From assembly GCA_013151235.1 (NCBI GenBank), contig JAADIO010000009.1:1-24422 (forward strand): 24,422 bases of DNA. The letters run 5' to 3'. The position numbers and the translations under genes were made by a program. Within the stretch, counting starts at the first letter, position 1. The number at the start of each line of letters is the position of its first letter. Source of the stretch: Deltaproteobacteria bacterium (lineage in GTDB: Bacteria; CG2-30-53-67). Under the pieces are notes generated by a model. It did not search any database. It was not told where the DNA came from and saw only the letters and a program-made list of their open reading frames with translations. Shown piece by piece: positions 6,006 to 14,757 of this stretch.

Positions 6006-6761
6006 TTATTTTTCGTTGTTCAGGGACCGGATATAGTTGATTACGTTCCATCGGTCCTCTTCGGAGGTCGTTGTTTTCCAGGCAGGCATGGCGCCCCGTC
6101 CTCTGGAGATCTTGTAGAAGATATCTCCATCCGGATGCATGCGGACCATCCAGCCGGTCAGGTCCGCCGGTTTGGGGTTGAGGCTGTCGGCCAGGGCGCC
6201 TGTTCCCTTTGCGTCCTTCCCGTGACAGATGATGCACCGTTGTTCGAAGATCGTTTTTCCCTTTGCGATGGAGTTCTTTGTTGCCTTCACGGGGTTGATC
6301 TTTTCCGCCGCTTCGGCCGGGGCCATCCAGTGGGACTCTCCCATCATGTGGTGATCTTCCTGTCCTTCACTTTTGTTTCCTTCCATTTCCATCTCATGGT
6401 GTTCCTCCTGATCCGTTTTATTTTCTTCGTGTTTCATCTTCATGCCGTGATGGGAGTCTTCCTTTGTTTTTTTGATGTATTTTGCAGGATCCTGTTCAAA
6501 GGCCTTCCGGTCGGCATCGCCGCAGAAGTAGTAGGTCTTCCCTTCGTATTCCATCTTGCCCCCGGCCGCCGTTTCGGGGTTAATCTTCATCCCGCAGACC
6601 GGGTCTGTCACGGTCTTGCCCATTGTTTTCTCCATCATCCCTTTCATGTTGTGTCCCTTCATTCCCTGCATCCCCCCTTCTTCCGCGGGGAGGAGGGTGC
6701 AAAAAGAGAGGGCCATAAGAATGGATAGGATTCCGGATAAGATCAGACTCTGCTTTTTCAT
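6006..6761 (-). CDS. Met/His-rich YHS domain-cytochrome c fusion, exported
   Basis: A 251-residue protein and the last gene of the copper-export cluster, 50 bases after cusA. The chosen start (MKKQSLIL) has AGGAGG 6 bases upstream; an in-frame ATG 33 bases earlier lacks such a site. Order of parts: signal peptide (1-about 26); Met-rich stretch 31-48 (MQGMKGHNMKGMMEKTM); YHS domain 51-96 with TDPVCGM and YYFCGDADRKAF; Met/His/Glu-rich linker 104-146 (HHGMKMKH, HHEMEME, HHMM); class I cytochrome c 160-250 with heme motif CIICH (176-180) and probable axial Met225 in GAMPAW. YHS domains and Met/His clusters bind Cu(I)/Ag(I) in many resistance systems. Inferred role: a periplasmic copper-binding electron carrier or a CusF substitute. 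The combination is unusual, and no assigned name is claimed. Confidence 0.85.
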   Translation of the reverse strand: MKKQSLILSGILSILMALSFCTLLPAEEGGMQGMKGHNMKGMMEKTMGKTVTDPVCGMKINPETAAGGKMEYEGKTYYFCGDADRKAFEQDPAKYIKKTKEDSHHGMKMKHEENKTDQEEHHEMEMEGNKSEGQEDHHMMGESHWMAPAEAAEKINPVKATKNSIAKGKTIFEQRCIICHGKDAKGTGALADSLNPKPADLTGWMVRMHPDGDIFYKISRGRGAMPAWKTTTSEEDRWNVINYIRSLNNEK

Positions 6762-6811
6762 TTTTGCCTCCTTGTTTGGTTTTCCTGTTCTCAATTTTTA
6801 ATTTTCAATCC

Positions 6812-9800
6812 CTAATTCCCGATTTTCGGTTCCGGGCCCCGAGTTCCCTGTCCCCGCCAGATGGCATAGATGGCGGGAATGACGATGAGGGTCAGGACCG
6901 TGGAGGTGACCATCCCGCCGATCATGGGGGCGGCGATTCGCCGCATGGTGTCGGCTCCGGCTCCATGCCCCCAGAAGAGCGGGAAGAGTCCGGCCATGAT
7001 CGCCATGACCGTCATCATCTTGGGACGGACCCGCTCCACGGCGCCGCTCATGACGGCGCTGTAGAGGTCGGTGAGGGAGAGGGGGCCGCCTTTTTCATGC
7101 AATTTTTCCTCATAGGCCTGATCGAGGTAGATCAGCATGACCACCCCCGTCTCCGCCGCCACACCGGCCAGGGCGATAAAGCCGACCCCGACGGCAATAC
7201 TCATATTATAGTGCAGCAAATGGAGGAACCAGACCCCCCCGACGATGGCGAAGGGGAGAGAGAGCATGACGATCAGACTCTCCGGCACGTTCCGGAAGTT
7301 CAGGTAGAGCAGAAGGAAGATGATCAGAAGCGTCACGGGGATCACAACCTTGAGGCGCTGATTGGCGCGTTCCATGTATTCGTACTGGCCCGACCAGACG
7401 ATGCTGTATCCGGGCGGCAGTGAGACCTCTTCACGAATGACCTTCTGCGCGTTTTTTACATAGGTTGCCACGTCACTGCTCTTTAAGTCCACATAAATCC
7501 AGGCCGTGCGCCGGGAGTTTTCGCTTTTGATCGAAGGCGGTCCCTGGTGAATCGAGATATCCGCCAACTGGGTGATGGGGACCTGTGCCCCTTGGGGGGT
7601 GGGGACCAGTATCCTTCTCAGTTGCTGCAGGGAGTTCCGGAATCCTCTGCCGTAACGGAGGTTGACGGGATAGCGTTCCAGCCCTTCCACTGTCTCCGTG
7701 ATGTTCATCCCACCCACGGCGGACTGGATCACATCCTCGACATCTCCTACGGTTAACCCGTAACGGGCCGCCTCCTTCCTCCGGATCTTATAGTCGAAGT
7801 AGTAACCGCCTACGACACGTTCCGAGTAGGCCGAGAGGGTCCCCGGCAGTTTGCGGACGATTGCCTCGATCTTCTTTCCCAGGTCGGAGAGAACCGAGAG
7901 ATCATCACCCATGATCTTGATCCCCACGGGGGTCTTGATTCCGGTGGAGAGCATGTCGATCCGGGTTTTGATCGGCATGGTCCAGGCATTGGTGACACCG
8001 GGGAACCGGATCGCCTGGTTGAGCTTGTGAATCAGTTCCTTGACCGTGATCGTCCGTTCCTCGGGCCAGATCTTGGCAAGCGGTTTCTTGAGGAAACCGG
8101 GCCAGGATGAAAACCACCGTTTTACCGGGATCTTCCGCCACTGGTCTTCCGGCTTCAGCATGATCGTGGTCTCCAGCATGGACAGCGGTGCCGGGTCGGT
8201 TGCGGTATCGGCCCGGCCGATCTTCCCGAAGACATGATGGACCTCGGGAAAGGTTTTAATGATCTTGTCGGTCTGTTGCAACAGTTCCTTGGCCTTGGTA
8301 ATTGAGATCCCCGGCAGGGTCGTCGGCATGTAGAGGAGGTCCCCTTCGTAAAGGGGAGGCATGAACTCCCCGCCGATCTTCTCGAGCGGAAAGAGGGTAT
8401 CGACCTTTTCCAGAACGGACTTCAGGAAAGGATTGTGCACCTTCTGCACCACGAGCCGGTTGAAAGGGAGCAGTGTCAGGATACAGAGAAGGGCGAGGAG
8501 AATCGTCGTCTTCCGGTACTTTAAAACCTTTGTGATGATCGGCCGATAGATCCAGATCAGAAAACGGTTCACCGGGTTTTTCTCTTCTTTTGCGACCTTT
8601 TGGGGCCAGAGGACGATAAAGATGATCGCGGCCGTGATCCCCGCGATGGGAAGGCTGAAGGCAGCGAGACCGCCCGTAAAAAGTTTCAGAACTCCCCACA
8701 GGAACAGGAAGGAGAGACCTCCTGCAAGGAGCGAAACGACCCGCTGTTTTCGTGTCGTCCAGTGGGACGGCAGGAGAGTCGTCCGGACAAAGTACCCCAT
8801 CATCACCGGAACCAGGGTCACGGAGAGAAGAGCGGCCGCCGCCATGGAGTAGGTCTTGGTGAAGGCGAGCGGTTTGAAAAGTCTTCCCTCCTGGGCCTGG
8901 AGGGTAAAAATCGGGAGGAAGGAGAGGGTAATGATCAAAAGAGAGAAGAAAAGGGCCGGCCCCACCTGTTTCGATGCGTCGAGGATAATCTCCCAGTGAT
9001 CTTTCTTCCCTTCGTCCCGTTCCAGGTGCTTGTGGGCGTTTTCGATCATGACGATGGCCGCATCGATCATCGCCCCGATGGCGATTGCGATTCCTCCCAG
9101 AGACATGATATTGGCATTCAGTCCTTGTCGGGACATGACGATGAAGGCCATCAGGATTCCGACCGGGAGCGTAAAGATTGCAACGAAGGCGGAACGGAAA
9201 TGGAGGAGAAAAATAATACAGACCAGGGCCACGACGATCGATTCCTCCACCAGTTTTTCCTTGAGAGTATCGACCGCCCGCTGGATCAGGCCGGAGCGAT
9301 CATAAACCGGGACGATTTCCACGCCTTTGGGAAGTCCTGCCTTCAACTCGGCCAGTTTCTTTTTTACGCGGTTGATTGTGGCCAAGGCGTTCTCGCCGTA
9401 CCGCATGATGACGACCCCGCCGGCTGTTTCCCCCTCTCCGTTCAGTTCGGCGATTCCCCGTCTCAGTTCCGGGCCGAGGTGTACGTCCGCGATATTCCGG
9501 ATCAGGACGGGGGTCCCGTTCTTGTCCGCGCCGACGGGGATGTTTTTGACATCCTCAATGGAATGTATATAACCCAGCCCGCGGACCATGTATTCGGTTT
9601 CGGCCATCTCGATCAACCGTCCCCCCACATCATTATTGGAGCGCTGTATGGCCTTTTTCACCTTGGAGAGGGGAATATTGTAGGCCAGGAGTTTGTTCGG
9701 GTCGACCTCCACCTGATACTGTTTGACATACCCCCCGATGGAGGCGACCTCGGAGACACCGGGTACGGCGGCCAACTGATACCGGAGATACCAGTCCTGG

Positions 9801-10276
9801 ATGCTGCGAAGTTTGGCCAAGTCATTCCGGCCTGTCTTGTCAACCAGGGCATATTCGTAGACCCACCCCACGCCGGTGGCATCGGGGCCGAGAGAGGGGG
9901 TGACCCCCGGCGGAAGTCTCTTGGCCGCATAATTCAGGTATTCCAGCACGCGGCTTCTGGCCCAGTAGAGGTCGGTCCCGTCTTCGAAAATAATATAGAC
10001 AAAGGAGAAGCCGAAGAAGGAGTATCCCCGCACCACCTTTGCGTAGGGCACGGCAAGCATGGCCGTGGTCAGGGGATAGGTAACCTGATCCTCAACGACC
10101 TGCGGCGCCTGGCCGGGATATTTTGTAAAGACGATGACCTGGACATCCGAAAGATCCGGGATCGCGTCGAGGGGGATCTTCGTCATCGTATAGGCACCCC
10201 AGAACAGGATAAAGGCTGTTCCGAGGATCACCAGAAAACGATTTTTAATGGAAAGTTCAATGATTTTTTCAAGCAT
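6812..10276 (-). CDS. cusA: CusA-type Cu(I)/Ag(I) RND efflux pump
   Basis: This 1154-residue heavy-metal RND transporter is the inner-membrane proton antiporter of a tripartite CusCBA exporter. Proton-relay Asp405 lies in GAMIDAAIVMIENAHKH, at the same number as in E. coli CusA. The three methionines of the E. coli Cu/Ag site (Met573, Met623, Met672) have equivalents at Met650 (LLYMPTTLPG), Met700 (PLSMLETTI) and Met775 (RIDMLSTGIK). That supports monovalent copper or silver over zinc/cobalt. It is about 107 residues longer than E. coli CusA (1047). The extra length falls at about 500-560 (two added hydrophobic segments), 606-632 and 714-738. AGGA lies 7 bases before ATG. It sits between cusB and the YHS-cytochrome gene, 44 bases after cusB, so co-transcription is likely. 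Confidence 0.93.
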   Translation of the reverse strand: MLEKIIELSIKNRFLVILGTAFILFWGAYTMTKIPLDAIPDLSDVQVIVFTKYPGQAPQVVEDQVTYPLTTAMLAVPYAKVVRGYSFFGFSFVYIIFEDGTDLYWARSRVLEYLNYAAKRLPPGVTPSLGPDATGVGWVYEYALVDKTGRNDLAKLRSIQDWYLRYQLAAVPGVSEVASIGGYVKQYQVEVDPNKLLAYNIPLSKVKKAIQRSNNDVGGRLIEMAETEYMVRGLGYIHSIEDVKNIPVGADKNGTPVLIRNIADVHLGPELRRGIAELNGEGETAGGVVIMRYGENALATINRVKKKLAELKAGLPKGVEIVPVYDRSGLIQRAVDTLKEKLVEESIVVALVCIIFLLHFRSAFVAIFTLPVGILMAFIVMSRQGLNANIMSLGGIAIAIGAMIDAAIVMIENAHKHLERDEGKKDHWEIILDASKQVGPALFFSLLIITLSFLPIFTLQAQEGRLFKPLAFTKTYSMAAAALLSVTLVPVMMGYFVRTTLLPSHWTTRKQRVVSLLAGGLSFLFLWGVLKLFTGGLAAFSLPIAGITAAIIFIVLWPQKVAKEEKNPVNRFLIWIYRPIITKVLKYRKTTILLALLCILTLLPFNRLVVQKVHNPFLKSVLEKVDTLFPLEKIGGEFMPPLYEGDLLYMPTTLPGISITKAKELLQQTDKIIKTFPEVHHVFGKIGRADTATDPAPLSMLETTIMLKPEDQWRKIPVKRWFSSWPGFLKKPLAKIWPEERTITVKELIHKLNQAIRFPGVTNAWTMPIKTRIDMLSTGIKTPVGIKIMGDDLSVLSDLGKKIEAIVRKLPGTLSAYSERVVGGYYFDYKIRRKEAARYGLTVGDVEDVIQSAVGGMNITETVEGLERYPVNLRYGRGFRNSLQQLRRILVPTPQGAQVPITQLADISIHQGPPSIKSENSRRTAWIYVDLKSSDVATYVKNAQKVIREEVSLPPGYSIVWSGQYEYMERANQRLKVVIPVTLLIIFLLLYLNFRNVPESLIVMLSLPFAIVGGVWFLHLLHYNMSIAVGVGFIALAGVAAETGVVMLIYLDQAYEEKLHEKGGPLSLTDLYSAVMSGAVERVRPKMMTVMAIMAGLFPLFWGHGAGADTMRRIAAPMIGGMVTSTVLTLIVIPAIYAIWRGQGTRGPEPKIGN

Positions 10277-10320: not shown

Positions 10321-12087
10321 CTAATAAGAAATTTCGTTGCCGCAGTTCAGCATCTTCTTTCCCAGGTACGGGTTCTCCGCCGTTGTTCCTTTCTGCAACC
10401 ACGGTTCCTTGACCATGGGACAGTAGAAGATGGAGAGTCCCAGCGCCCTGGCGCCCTTCGGGTCCCGGTCCTTGACATAATCGGCCAAGGCTTGGCTGAT
10501 CGTCTTGAACCCCTTCCGGACGGTCTTGATATTTCCGGATAACAATTCGGGCGCAGAGACGGTCAGTGCCCTCGTGGTCCCGGCCAGGCTCCGGTCCTTG
10601 TCCGCGACCTTTATCTTCTCAGCGAGTGTTGCCATCTCCACGACCGAAGGTTTGATCCCTTCCAGGGTGTCGGACTTGAGTTTTCGCTGAATGACCAGGT
10701 AATCCTCCAGGATCCGCTCCATGGAGGTCCGGATCGTCTCCGGCAGAGGCGGGGCCGTCTTCATGCCCTTCATATTCTTCATCTCTTTCATTGCTGTTTT
10801 CTTTGCCGGAACTTTCTTTGCTTCCAACATCTTGTTGATCGCCTCTTTGAGATTGCTTTCGGAGTCGATCAGGAACTGTGCCGAGGTTACGACCCGTTCC
10901 CCTTCGGTCAGGCCGGAAAGAATCTGGTAATACCCTTCGCCCTCGGCGCCGAGCTTGACATCGCGGGGGAGAAACTTCCCTTCGCCCCGGCTGAGAATAA
11001 CAATGTTTTTCTCACCGGAACGAAGAATGGCTTCCTCCGGGATCACGAGCGTGGATTTCGATACCCTCGAACGGATCGAGACATTGGCATACATGTCCGG
11101 TTTCAGTTTCCAGTCCGGATTCCTGAATTCCATCCGGACCTTGACGGTTCGTGTCTTTTTGTCGAGAAAGGGGTAGATGTACGAGATCTTCCCCCGGTAC
11201 GCTCTTCCCGGAAGGTAGGAAAGAGTCATTTTTACATCCTGCCCCAAACGCAGCCAGGGAAGCTCATACTCATAGATGTCGGCATAGACCCAGACATCGG
11301 AGATGTCGGCGATCGTATAAAGATTCATCCCCGGTTTGACGTACATCCCCTCCTGTACCTTTTTATCAATGACCACGCCGCGGGTAGGGGAATGGAGAAC
11401 AAGGTCCTTCCTGATCTCGTTGCTCTTTTCGATCTGATCGATCTGCCGGGAGGTGATGTCGAAAAGTTCCAGCCGTTTCCGGGTGGAGGAGAGCAGGGTA
11501 TCCGCTCCTTCCGAAACGGTGGAAAAGGGGCTTGCACCGAGGGACTTTTTGTATTTCAATGCGAGCAGGTATTCCTGCTGGGTGGAGACCAACTCCGGGC
11601 TGTAGATGGAAAGAAGGGCGGTGCCCTTGTCGACATCCTGCCCGAGAAAATCGACGTAGAGTTTTTCTACCCACCCTTCCATTTTGGTATGAATATGTTC
11701 CACACGCCTTTCATCGTAGCCGACACGGCCCACGGTCCGGATAGTCCGGGAGAGCGCCCTTCGTTCGACCGGAGCGGTCCGGACACCGATGTCCTGCACG
11801 GTGACCGGATCGATTCTGATCGTACCCGGCTCGCTCTTGTCTTCCTCTCCTTCATAGACCGGGATCAGGTCCATTCCCATGGGAGACTTGCCCGGTTTGT
11901 CCCGGATATAAGTCGGGTCCATCGGGGCCTGCCAGTACTTGACCTTTCTGGCCTTCCGCCCTCCGTTTGCGGAACTCTTTCCCATGGCGGGGGATTTCTC
12001 CGGATGGGAAGTGCGCCCGAATTGGTAGCCGGTATAAAGCGTCGCTGCCAGGAGAATCAATATTAAGATCGGTTTTCGGATGTTCAT
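10321..12087 (-). CDS. cusB: CusB-type periplasmic adaptor with HMBD and C-terminal metal domain
   Basis: A 588-residue membrane-fusion protein that links CusA to the outer-membrane channel. One N-terminal membrane anchor (about 5-22) precedes a heavy-metal-binding domain (about 50-78, YWQAPMDPTY...GKSPMGMDLIPVYEGE). The usual adaptor core follows: beta-barrel, lipoyl and alpha-hairpin regions (about 88-425) with typical runs such as GWVEKLYVDFLGQ and SPTRGVVIDKKVQEGMYV. A Met-rich linker (about 432-446, MKEMKNMKGMK) joins a C-terminal DUF3347-like domain ending in FYCPMVKEPW...NPYLGKKMLNCG. E. coli CusB has 407 residues, so this copy has added metal-binding ends, as seen in relatives where CusF-like functions are fused. 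GAGGGGA lies 5 bases before ATG. The end domains suggest metal hand-over to CusA. Confidence 0.92.
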   Translation of the reverse strand: MNIRKPILILILLAATLYTGYQFGRTSHPEKSPAMGKSSANGGRKARKVKYWQAPMDPTYIRDKPGKSPMGMDLIPVYEGEEDKSEPGTIRIDPVTVQDIGVRTAPVERRALSRTIRTVGRVGYDERRVEHIHTKMEGWVEKLYVDFLGQDVDKGTALLSIYSPELVSTQQEYLLALKYKKSLGASPFSTVSEGADTLLSSTRKRLELFDITSRQIDQIEKSNEIRKDLVLHSPTRGVVIDKKVQEGMYVKPGMNLYTIADISDVWVYADIYEYELPWLRLGQDVKMTLSYLPGRAYRGKISYIYPFLDKKTRTVKVRMEFRNPDWKLKPDMYANVSIRSRVSKSTLVIPEEAILRSGEKNIVILSRGEGKFLPRDVKLGAEGEGYYQILSGLTEGERVVTSAQFLIDSESNLKEAINKMLEAKKVPAKKTAMKEMKNMKGMKTAPPLPETIRTSMERILEDYLVIQRKLKSDTLEGIKPSVVEMATLAEKIKVADKDRSLAGTTRALTVSAPELLSGNIKTVRKGFKTISQALADYVKDRDPKGARALGLSIFYCPMVKEPWLQKGTTAENPYLGKKMLNCGNEISY

Positions 12088-12147: not shown

Positions 12148-13422
12148 TTAAAAGAGTCTTTCATCAACAATCGCCTCCATCTTGGCCAATTGCTTCTCGT
12201 AGTCGGTCAAAGTGCGGGCATAGGCCAATTCGAATTTCAACAGGGTAAGCTGGTTGTCAACGAGGGTCAGAAAATCAACCTTGTTGACCTGGTACCCTGA
12301 AATAGCGGAGTCCAGGGACTGCCGGGCCTGGGGCAGAAACCCTTTTTTGTAAAGCCGGATCAGGTTTTTCTCCTTTGCGATCTCGGCAAACGTATCTTGA
12401 ATCGCAAAGAGAACCCGGTTCTTCACTTCGTTATAGGTCGACTCCCTCCGGGCCAGTTCCGCCTGGGATTCGATCACCCCCTGGCGCTGTTTCCTTTTGG
12501 CATAGAGCGGAATGTTAACGGTGACAAAGGCGCTGAACCAGTCATTGCCGGGAAAGTTGGCCCCCTCTTCCCGCTGCTTGTAGGTGACGGCGAAGTTGAA
12601 GTCGGGCAGGATGGCCTTTTCGGCAAAGTGAAGGTCCGCCTCGCTCCCTTCAATCAGTTTCTGCGCCGCCTGCAGAGGCAGACTCTTTTTGAGGGCCTTT
12701 GTTTCCAGTTCCTTCAGGGTGAAAGGAAAAGGCGTGGCGGGCCGCTCCTCCGGATCCGCCAGCGGTGTCTCCGGCGCCCGGTTGAGGAGTGTATTGATCC
12801 GGGCCTTTGCCGTCTCTTTCTTTTGATGAAGGACAATCAGTTCATTGATAATCCCGGAGAGTTCCACCTGGGCCTTCAGCACATCCTGCTGCAGACCCTT
12901 CCCGACGGAATACTTGGTTGCGGCCACGTCGGCCAGGCCGGAGAGAAGGTCTCGGTTTCGTTTGTTGATCCGGATGGACTCATTGATAAAGAGGAGATCG
13001 AAATAGGCGTCCTTGACCCGCCGGATGATCTCCGTGACCCGGTCCCGGTAGAGGGCATCCATGGAGTCGGCCCGGAGAGATGCCGCCTTTTCCTTCAGGG
13101 CCAGTTTGCCCGGAAAGGGAAACTTTTGGGAGAGGCCGATCACTTTTGACGTCGGCAGAAAGGCGTCGAACGAGGGATTGGAAACCGGGACGTTATCGAC
13201 GCCGATGGTCAGCATGGGATCGGGAAGGGCGCCCGCCTGCGGGGTCGCCGCCCGGAAGGATTCTACCCGGTTTTTGAGGGTACGGATCTCGGGATTTGCC
13301 TTGACGGCCTCATCGATCAGTACCTTCAGTGTGAGTCTCTCCTGTCCGTATGAGACCGCCGGGAACACCCCGGTTAGAAAGATTCCCCATATGGAAATTG
13401 CAAGCAGTAAACCCTGTGCCAT
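12148..13422 (-). CDS. cusC: TolC-family outer membrane efflux protein (CusC-like)
   Basis: This 424-residue outer-membrane channel should complete the CusCBA pump. A signal peptide covers about 1-26 (hydrophobic GLLLAISIWGIFLTGVF, then AVSYG). The mature part has the two repeated helical halves of the OEP family, with characteristic stretches such as AVKANPEIRTLKNRVESF near the start and a long coiled helix near the C-terminus (QLTLLKFELAYARTLTDYEK). There is no lipobox, so it is probably not a lipoprotein like E. coli CusC. The start used here has AGGAG 7 bases upstream; an ATG 27 bases earlier has no such site. It is the first gene after a near-consensus sigma70 promoter and is followed by cusB after 60 bases. 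Confidence 0.9.
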   Translation of the reverse strand: MAQGLLLAISIWGIFLTGVFPAVSYGQERLTLKVLIDEAVKANPEIRTLKNRVESFRAATPQAGALPDPMLTIGVDNVPVSNPSFDAFLPTSKVIGLSQKFPFPGKLALKEKAASLRADSMDALYRDRVTEIIRRVKDAYFDLLFINESIRINKRNRDLLSGLADVAATKYSVGKGLQQDVLKAQVELSGIINELIVLHQKKETAKARINTLLNRAPETPLADPEERPATPFPFTLKELETKALKKSLPLQAAQKLIEGSEADLHFAEKAILPDFNFAVTYKQREEGANFPGNDWFSAFVTVNIPLYAKRKQRQGVIESQAELARRESTYNEVKNRVLFAIQDTFAEIAKEKNLIRLYKKGFLPQARQSLDSAISGYQVNKVDFLTLVDNQLTLLKFELAYARTLTDYEKQLAKMEAIVDERLF

Positions 13423-13436
13423 TCTGCGCTCCTTTC

Positions 13437-13622
13437 TTAAGTGCAGCATGGATAAAAAATGTCTGGAATTTCAAACAGTTTGAAGTTCTTTCCGAAGATA
13501 TCCCAGAAGAGGGACCCTGTCAATTCTCCGGAGCAGTTCTCCCCGGGAATCCCGGGAGAGGACAAACCGGTCCTGCTGGGAGAAAAAAGGTTCGGGATGG
13601 TGTACTCGGCATCAGCCTTCAT
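13437..13622 (-). CDS. Doubtful 61-codon ORF before cusC
   Basis: An open frame in the gap between the 144-residue gene and cusC. GAGG lies 5 bases before its ATG, and the product is rich in Ser/Pro/Gly and ends with CCT. Against it, the cusC promoter and two GC-rich dyads lie inside it, and there is no recognisable domain or signal peptide. It may be chance in a regulatory spacer. Confidence 0.2.
   Translation of the reverse strand: MKADAEYTIPNLFSPSRTGLSSPGIPGENCSGELTGSLFWDIFGKNFKLFEIPDIFYPCCT
13495..13523 (-). promoter_or_regulatory. Near-consensus sigma70 promoter for cusCBA
   Basis: On the minus strand TTGACA (13523-13518), exactly 17 bases, then TATCTT (13500-13495). The transcript would start near 13488, leaving a leader of about 65 bases before cusC. 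Two dyads lie immediately upstream: CTCCGGAG (13526-13533) and a CCCGGG-AAT-CCCGGG centred repeat with TCTC/AGA flanks (13538-13559). Either could be an operator. The spacer is 17 rather than 19-20, so a MerR/CueR-type mechanism is not suggested. Confidence 0.6.
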
Positions 13623-13704: not shown

Positions 13705-14139
13705 CTACTTCGTCCGTGAAATCAGGTGGATCTGGTAGAAAATCCGGCTTTGAATTCGGCTTCCCTCTTTCGGGGTCGTCTTGATCAGGATCGTCCCCAC
13801 GGATCGGTCCGAGGGGATAAAACGGGCAAGCACATTCTCGAACCAGCCGTGGCTTTCATTGAAGATCCAGAACTTCCAGATCCCCGGATGGAGCCGGGTG
13901 ACCGGGAGGTTCGGCCCCATGGCAATCCAGGGAGTTTCTCCGGATTGATCGCAGCGGCCATCTGCATAGGCGAGAAGGAAGGAATCGCTTCCGACCCGGG
14001 ATTCGTATTCGAGGTTTCCTTCCATCCCTTCGGGGATCACGAGGGTCGCGACCGATCTTCCTACCATTCCGGTTGTCTGAAATCGGATGAAATTTTCCGC
14101 CGAAGGAACAGGTTTCTTATGTATGGTTTCAGAATTCAT
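13705..14139 (-). CDS. Hypothetical protein in the copper cluster (144 aa)
   Basis: I do not recognise this protein. It has 144 residues with no signal peptide or membrane segment. The predicted pattern is short beta-strands rich in aromatics (WIAMGPN, WKFWIFNESHGWF at about 88-100, then RIFYQIHL near the end). It has one Cys (Cys63) and no metal-binding cluster. AGGAG lies 7 bases before ATG, giving good support for the start. It lies between the exported Cys-rich gene (159 bases upstream) and cusC (282 bases downstream), all on the minus strand. It is therefore probably transcribed from the promoter at 14769-14797. The compact all-beta look could suit a small cytoplasmic ligand-binding protein, but no function is assigned. 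Confidence 0.65.
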   Translation of the reverse strand: MNSETIHKKPVPSAENFIRFQTTGMVGRSVATLVIPEGMEGNLEYESRVGSDSFLLAYADGRCDQSGETPWIAMGPNLPVTRLHPGIWKFWIFNESHGWFENVLARFIPSDRSVGTILIKTTPKEGSRIQSRIFYQIHLISRTK

Positions 14140-14298: not shown

Positions 14299-14757
14299 TC
14301 AGATCAGAAAGGCGCTGTTGAGCAGGAAAACGGAACGTGTCCCTTGTGGAAAAAGTAAGGACCTGTAAAGGAATGACGGATTACCGGAAGCGGGGTAGAC
14401 TGCTCCTTCCACCACCGAAAGGGTGCTGAAAAAAGAACCCTGATTTCCATCGGGATGAAAAACCGGGGAAGAGATCCCTTGTGAAAGAATCAGGCTGCAG
14501 TTACAGAGAGGGCATTGAACCGCATGGGAATGCGAAGAGGAAGTCCCTTTCTGCGAAGTGTCCGGATTGCACCTTTGATCTGCCGCTGAACTTTGGCAAC
14601 CCTCGACCGCCCCGGCCTGCTGTTCCATGCCTGAGGAATGATTCCCCGGCAGACAGGAGCAGAATGCGGGAGTGGTCTGGAGAAGCAACAAGAATACCGC
14701 GAGAAAGGATATCCTGAAGCTCCACTGTGACCTGCGCTGTCTCTGTAAACTTTCCAT
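14299..14757 (-). CDS. Exported Cys-rich small protein, possible metal binder
   Basis: This 152-residue protein is the first gene of the copper cluster. An Arg-rich N-terminus and a hydrophobic core (about 14-32, FLAVFLLLLQTTPAF) form a signal peptide. The mature part has seven cysteines (33, 35, 54, 63, 82, 85, 87), including CSC and CPLCNC, with His77/His79 in SHSHA just before. Short exported proteins with HxH...CPxC patterns often stand at the head of copper-resistance operons (DUF2946- or CopL-like); homology to those is not established here. No Shine-Dalgarno sequence precedes the ATG, but a good promoter would start transcription only about 5 bases upstream, which suggests leaderless translation. 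Likely periplasmic copper sequestration; function is inferred. Confidence 0.6.
   Translation of the reverse strand: MESLQRQRRSQWSFRISFLAVFLLLLQTTPAFCSCLPGNHSSGMEQQAGAVEGCQSSAADQRCNPDTSQKGTSSSHSHAVQCPLCNCSLILSQGISSPVFHPDGNQGSFFSTLSVVEGAVYPASGNPSFLYRSLLFPQGTRSVFLLNSAFLI

Follow-up and report, generated by a model that had tools for sequence, protein, structure and literature searches.

A YHS-cytochrome c fusion encoded at the end of a cus operon: a candidate periplasmic accessory of copper export

Known oxidation of periplasmic copper relies on multicopper oxidases that use O2, and Cus efflux systems are usually described together with CusF. In the CusCFBA system of E. coli, CusF is the periplasmic Cu(I)/Ag(I) chaperone, and CueO and CopA/PcoA are multicopper cuprous oxidases. 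YHS/TRASH domains occur in copper ATPases and in an adenylyl cyclase of M. phlei. One Asp and three Cys have been proposed as their metal ligands, and a copper response in vitro was seen for a YHS-domain enzyme (PMC4626032). For GigPABT of Cupriavidus metallidurans, one report proposes that periplasmic Cu(I) is oxidized without a multicopper oxidase and that the electrons pass to the respiratory pool (PMC10304878). Cytochrome c552 of Thioalkalivibrio paradoxus has the heme ligands His59 and Met103, an Em of about +162 mV and disordered His-rich ends, and takes electrons from a copper enzyme, thiocyanate dehydrogenase (TcDH) (PMC9456337). Among open-licence papers, no description was found of a YHS and cytochrome c fusion or of a link between CusA and a cytochrome c.

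The locus described here lies in a 24,422-nucleotide stretch of a deltaproteobacterial genome, hereafter the window. The fusion gene encodes 251 residues on the minus strand, from an ATG at 6761 to a stop at 6006, the stop codon being included in the coordinates 6006-6761. It is preceded on the same strand by cusC, cusB and cusA, which are separated by gaps of 40-60 bp, with about 50 bp between cusA and the fusion gene. The earlier note had placed the gene at the end of a cusCBA operon and had described an exported protein composed of a Met-rich stretch, a YHS domain, a Met/His-rich linker and a CIICH cytochrome c. The gene order bears out the former, and Pfam matches, composition and alignment bear out the latter. 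Promoter and terminator scans around the gene gave results close to chance.

Table 1. Coordinates of the fusion gene, the parts of its product and the neighbouring genes in the window
Feature	Coordinates	Strand	Basis
YHS-cytochrome c fusion gene, last in the cus operon	6006..6761	-	ORF, Pfam domains, orthologues
Shine-Dalgarno AAGGAGG, 5 nt ahead of the ATG at 6761	6767..6773	-	sequence
Signal peptide, residues 1-26, signal peptidase I type, without conserved lipobox Cys	6684..6761	-	sequence
Met-rich N-terminal stretch, residues 27-50 (6 Met, 1 His in 24)	6612..6683	-	
YHS domain, residues 51-97; candidate ligands D53, C56, C80, D84	6471..6611	-	PF04945
Met/His-rich linker, residues 98-143 (6 Met, 7 His in 46)	6333..6470	-	
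Mono-heme class I cytochrome c with leading HWMAP motif, residues 144-251	6009..6332	-	PF13442 2.3e-13; 7o9u 3.3e-18
Heme-binding CIICH, residues 176-180, axial His180	6222..6236	-	C176, C179, H180 invariant
Axial methionine M225 in GRGAMPAW	6087..6089	-	alignment with axial Met103 of 7o9u; invariant
cusA, RND pump, TIGR00914; Cu(I)/Ag(I) methionines M650, M700, M775 kept	6812..10276	-	
cusB adaptor: N-terminal heavy-metal-binding domain (PF19335), N-terminal Met ligands kept, additional C-terminal domain	10321..12087	-	
cusC, outer-membrane factor (PF02321)	12148..13449	-	
Cys-rich exported 152-aa protein	14299..14757	-	no Pfam match; homologues in G002, G003

The protein is unlikely to be a lipoprotein, because Cys21 of the signal peptide is not conserved in the orthologues. 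Met and His together account for 7 of the 24 residues at 27-50 and 13 of the 46 at 98-143, with chance probabilities of 3e-5 and 2e-8 at the window background. No other 46-residue stretch in the window's main genes holds more than 8. This ligand-rich sequence forms the basis for proposing that the protein may bind copper. The Met/His density of the linker differs among the orthologues, from 19 Met plus His down to 5, the latter in G003. The mature fusion proteins contain exactly four Cys, which here lie pairwise in the YHS domain and in CIICH. An AlphaFold2 model built from two sequences was poor (pLDDT 49; about 80 in the YHS domain and mostly below 50 in the cytochrome), and sequence alignment served to assign the axial ligands.

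The heme domain has the features of a class I mono-heme cytochrome c, namely a CxxCH motif, a distal axial Met and a profile match. Residues 164-244 match Cytochrome_CBB3 (PF13442) with an E-value of 2.3e-13 and also Cytochrom_C, both above the cut-off. The best solved match is cytochrome c552 of T. paradoxus (PDB 7o9u, E 3.3e-18), whose axial Met103 aligns with M225. The two share a His-rich lead-in and the same spacing of CxxCH and axial Met, and c552 (PDB 7o9u, 9vr0) also partners a copper enzyme. Unlike the fusion protein, c552 is without a YHS domain, serves thiocyanate dehydrogenase and is not reported in a Cus operon in the accessible part of its description (PMC9456337).

The YHS domain matches PF04945 over residues 51-97 (E 1.6e-13; 50.8 bits against a cut-off of 30.3). 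As in the YHS/TRASH domains described in PMC4626032, it starts with D-x-x-C and has a central Cys. It differs from them in being exported, in being joined to a cytochrome c and in carrying Asp or Glu in place of the third Cys. D53, C56 and C80 are kept here and D84 replaces the third Cys, so that the site departs from the full set of one Asp and three Cys, which is a proposal and not needed for a Pfam YHS match. Across the four orthologues D53, C56 and C80 are invariant and position 84 is D or E. Among 45 distinct YHS ORFs of the fetched loci, the third-Cys position is acidic in 13 and Cys in 32. The start is visible in 12 of the 13 acidic ORFs, and export is predicted for every one of these 12, whereas 12 of the 32 Cys-type ORFs are flagged as exported or membrane-spanning (Fisher 1.3e-4, by a crude signal-peptide rule and uncorrected for kinship). 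Two other settings of YHS domains were seen. Five family genomes each also encode, elsewhere, a small exported free-standing YHS protein of the form DPxCGM ... FCxxxE (L111, L112 (G000:C10), L113-L115). In G290 (L184 2427-4214), a long ORF resembling a CusB-type adaptor bears YHS domains at its C-terminal end, which constitutes another joining of YHS and Cus.

The pump was aligned with E. coli CusA because TIGR00914, which CusA matches with 1234 bits, spans both CusA and CzcA pumps. M650, M700 and M775 align with E. coli M573, M623 and M672, the three methionines of the copper/silver site. The N-terminal Met ligands of CusB are likewise kept in alignment with 3ne5_B (PM ... MGM). The pump thus looks like a Cu(I)/Ag(I)-type CusCBA by sequence. 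A zinc/cobalt-type pump was rejected, as the CusA Met triad is present.

Several neighbouring features were also noted. CusB (10321-12087, minus strand) carries at residues ~479-583 an extra C-terminal domain that contains a CPM ... CGN motif and is similar to LIC13259/LIC11441 proteins (NF047615). A 144-aa protein without a family match (13705-14139, minus strand) is encoded between cusC and the Cys-rich exported protein. The latter (14299-14757, minus strand) has no Pfam or NCBIfam match. Its CxCLPG ... CPLCxC type recurs beside cus genes or a Cus-linked cytochrome (L027 7654-8094, L028 3339-3785), and homologues lie ahead of cusC in G003 and ahead of the Cus-linked cytochrome in G002.

The fusion lies beside cusA in four of six sampled genomes of one GTDB family, this one and three others. 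Full-length orthologues lie 54-177 bp after cusA in G000, G001, G003 and G005, which represent two genera. A domain-architecture search had been suggested in the earlier note, together with the view that its idea would fall if no other genome had the fusion beside metal export genes. The search found YHS and cytochrome c fused next to cusA in four genomes of one family, so the idea withstands that challenge in three genomes besides this one. Two sets of 386 and 384 genomes, which share some members, yielded no fusion besides these. No further fusion occurs among the 45 distinct YHS ORFs of the fetched loci, and plasmid records contain one domain or the other and no fusion. A scan of genome contigs returned a single full-length relative. 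In G002, of the same family, the linker and cytochrome are present without the YHS domain, upstream of a more distant cusCBA (CusA 48% identity). This cytochrome falls within the clade of the fusions in the tree, so that either loss of the YHS domain in G002 or a move of the gene is probable.

CusF (PF11604) and Cu-oxidase_3 (PF07732) gave no match in the six draft genomes of the family, and matched in control genomes. The lack of recognisable CusF and multicopper oxidase is judged by these two models in draft genomes. The earlier suggestion that the fusion takes the place of CusF holds up to this extent, as PF11604 is found in none of the six. The Pfam scan of the fusion protein itself gave YHS and cytochrome families only, with no CusF (PF11604) and no Cu-oxidase domains. 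A CusF homologue was rejected on the lack of a PF11604 match. Cytochrome c maturation genes and genes for COX1-family heme-copper oxidases are present in the family genomes.

Related cytochromes recur near CusA in other families. Loci were counted as Cus-linked when a CusA with 45% or higher identity lay within 4 kb of the cytochrome. By this definition 12 of 69 non-fusion loci, from six families, are Cus-linked, with about 0.3-1.3 loci expected by chance. The first sample contributed 6 of 53 (G002, G047, G222, G081, G194 and G075). The second contributed 6 of 16, but was centred on G222 and is biased, having been chosen after the first result. At the family level, six families compare with at most about one expected (P ~5e-4 on a generous assumption). 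Most relatives of the cytochrome sit away from CusA. Mapped on the cytochrome tree, which has few columns, the Cus label requires seven changes, fewer than in shuffles, and the Cus-linked rows are spread over more than one clade. The Cus-linked copy in G194 appears frameshifted. In a separate setting related to metals, the cytochrome accompanies HMA-like proteins, a Cys-rich protein and FtsX-type ABC genes (L032 6537-10551 in G049; L092 3941-9666 in G194).

Some of these cytochromes carry metal-binding-like parts of their own. That of G047 has a C-terminal segment resembling a heavy-metal-binding domain (HMBD) and a Met/His tail, the search in its phylum covering three genomes. His/Met-rich tails are also present on the cytochromes of G002, G075 and one of G415. 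An exported Met-rich protein (16-27% Met, within 6 kb, same strand) is encoded near 9 of the 12 Cus-linked cytochromes versus 1 of the 57 others (Fisher 4e-8, uncorrected for kinship). The parts of the fusion therefore appear as adjacent genes in other lineages and in one chain here. Examples in families f76 and f262 are L072, L073, L207, L210-L212, L214 and L215.

These features lead us to propose, with a probability of about 0.42, that the fusion protein is a copper-binding cytochrome dedicated to the Cu(I)/Ag(I)-type CusCBA as a periplasmic accessory. Its Met/His-rich stretches and two-Cys YHS domain would capture periplasmic copper, with which the tethered mono-heme cytochrome c would exchange one electron. 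The direction would most likely be from Cu(I) to heme, the electron then passing to the respiratory chain, and the copper may be transferred to CusB. The cytochrome would act in place of the missing multicopper cuprous oxidase, and the metal-binding part would replace the missing CusF. Like CusF, the protein is exported, encoded in a cus operon and expected to deliver Met-bound copper to the pump; it differs from CusF in having heme c together with a YHS domain and shows no sequence relation to it. It would share with CueO and CopA/PcoA the oxidation of periplasmic Cu(I), but has no homology to them, and its electron would enter a cytochrome chain and not go directly to O2. GigPABT differs in the proposed destination of its electrons, the quinol pool, and a YHS-cytochrome fusion is not described in the accessible part of that report (PMC10304878).

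Redox handling of copper by the fusion protein is plausible. It gains support from the lack of multicopper oxidases, the Cus-linked cytochromes of other families and the role of c552 as an acceptor of electrons from a copper enzyme. This last point, together with the lack of recognisable cuprous oxidases and the route proposed for C. metallidurans, favours transfer from Cu(I) to heme. The proposal is also backed by the recurrence of the fusion in four genomes, 3' of cusA, and by the invariance of D53, C56 and C80 in the YHS domain, of CxxCH and of M225. The poorly conserved Met/His of the linker, the G002 cytochrome without a YHS domain, the distance of most relatives from CusA and the scattering of the Cus-linked rows over the tree speak against it. 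A wider version, which we consider tentative and rather unlikely, is a heme-based copper redox module of Cus systems. Here a soluble cytochrome c would take electrons from periplasmic copper or give electrons to it, replacing CusF and the multicopper cuprous oxidase, with the cytochrome and the Met-rich protein encoded by separate genes in several families and fused in this one.

Electron flow in the reverse direction has to be taken seriously, since Cu(I) is what Cus exports and what soft ligands prefer. Electrons from the respiratory chain might reduce the heme, and the heme might then turn Cu(II) held in the His-rich linker into Cu(I), which would pass through the YHS and Met sites to CusB and CusA. 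The retained Met triad of CusA and the preference of soft YHS/Met ligands for Cu(I) are consistent with such reduction, and the +162 mV of the c552 heme is near the value for aqueous Cu(II)/Cu(I). This couple is shifted to a higher potential at a soft Cys/Met copper site, so oxidation by a heme of ~+160 mV would be uphill and the reverse direction favoured. Copper in the periplasm is more toxic as Cu(I), however, which would make production of this form costly, and the related c552 is an acceptor and not a donor in its partnership with a copper enzyme. On balance reduction seems unlikely.

The heme may instead have no exchange with copper. The protein would then be a Cu(I) chaperone or buffer that delivers to CusB in the manner of CusF, its cytochrome serving as a copper-tolerant carrier when copper damages other cytochromes. 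The metal-binding parts vary while the heme domain is constant, same-type cytochromes occur at loci without CusA, and copper affects c-type cytochrome assembly, as cited in PMC10304878. We regard this reading as unlikely, since it leaves unexplained both the repeated Cus linkage in six families and the fusion of heme and metal-binding parts in one chain. CusCBA also exports Ag(I), and with only two YHS Cys and an acidic last ligand, C56 and C80 could form a redox-active pair or an Ag(I) site for silver or another thiophilic metal. Two-Cys acidic YHS domains are general in exported proteins (12 of 12 with an intact start), and Met/His stretches are typical copper ligands, which makes silver or thiol chemistry very unlikely. 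Restriction of the fusion to one family would suit an ordinary electron-carrier cytochrome that happens to adjoin cusA. Such coincidence is rejected as barely credible: the 54-177 bp spacing is kept in four genomes and two genera, and the relatives' Cus linkage is far above expectation.

The domains and the pump are known already; the open-licence papers searched describe neither the combination of domains nor the recurring link of the cytochrome to Cus. If the proposed oxidation by a Cus-dedicated cytochrome is correct, bacteria without CusF and multicopper oxidases would have a route of copper oxidation that could do without direct use of O2. For CusA-adjacent genes annotated merely as 'cytochrome c', a role in copper tolerance could then be tested. 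The Cus-linked heme proteins in distant groups hint at a little-noticed, heme-based handling of copper.
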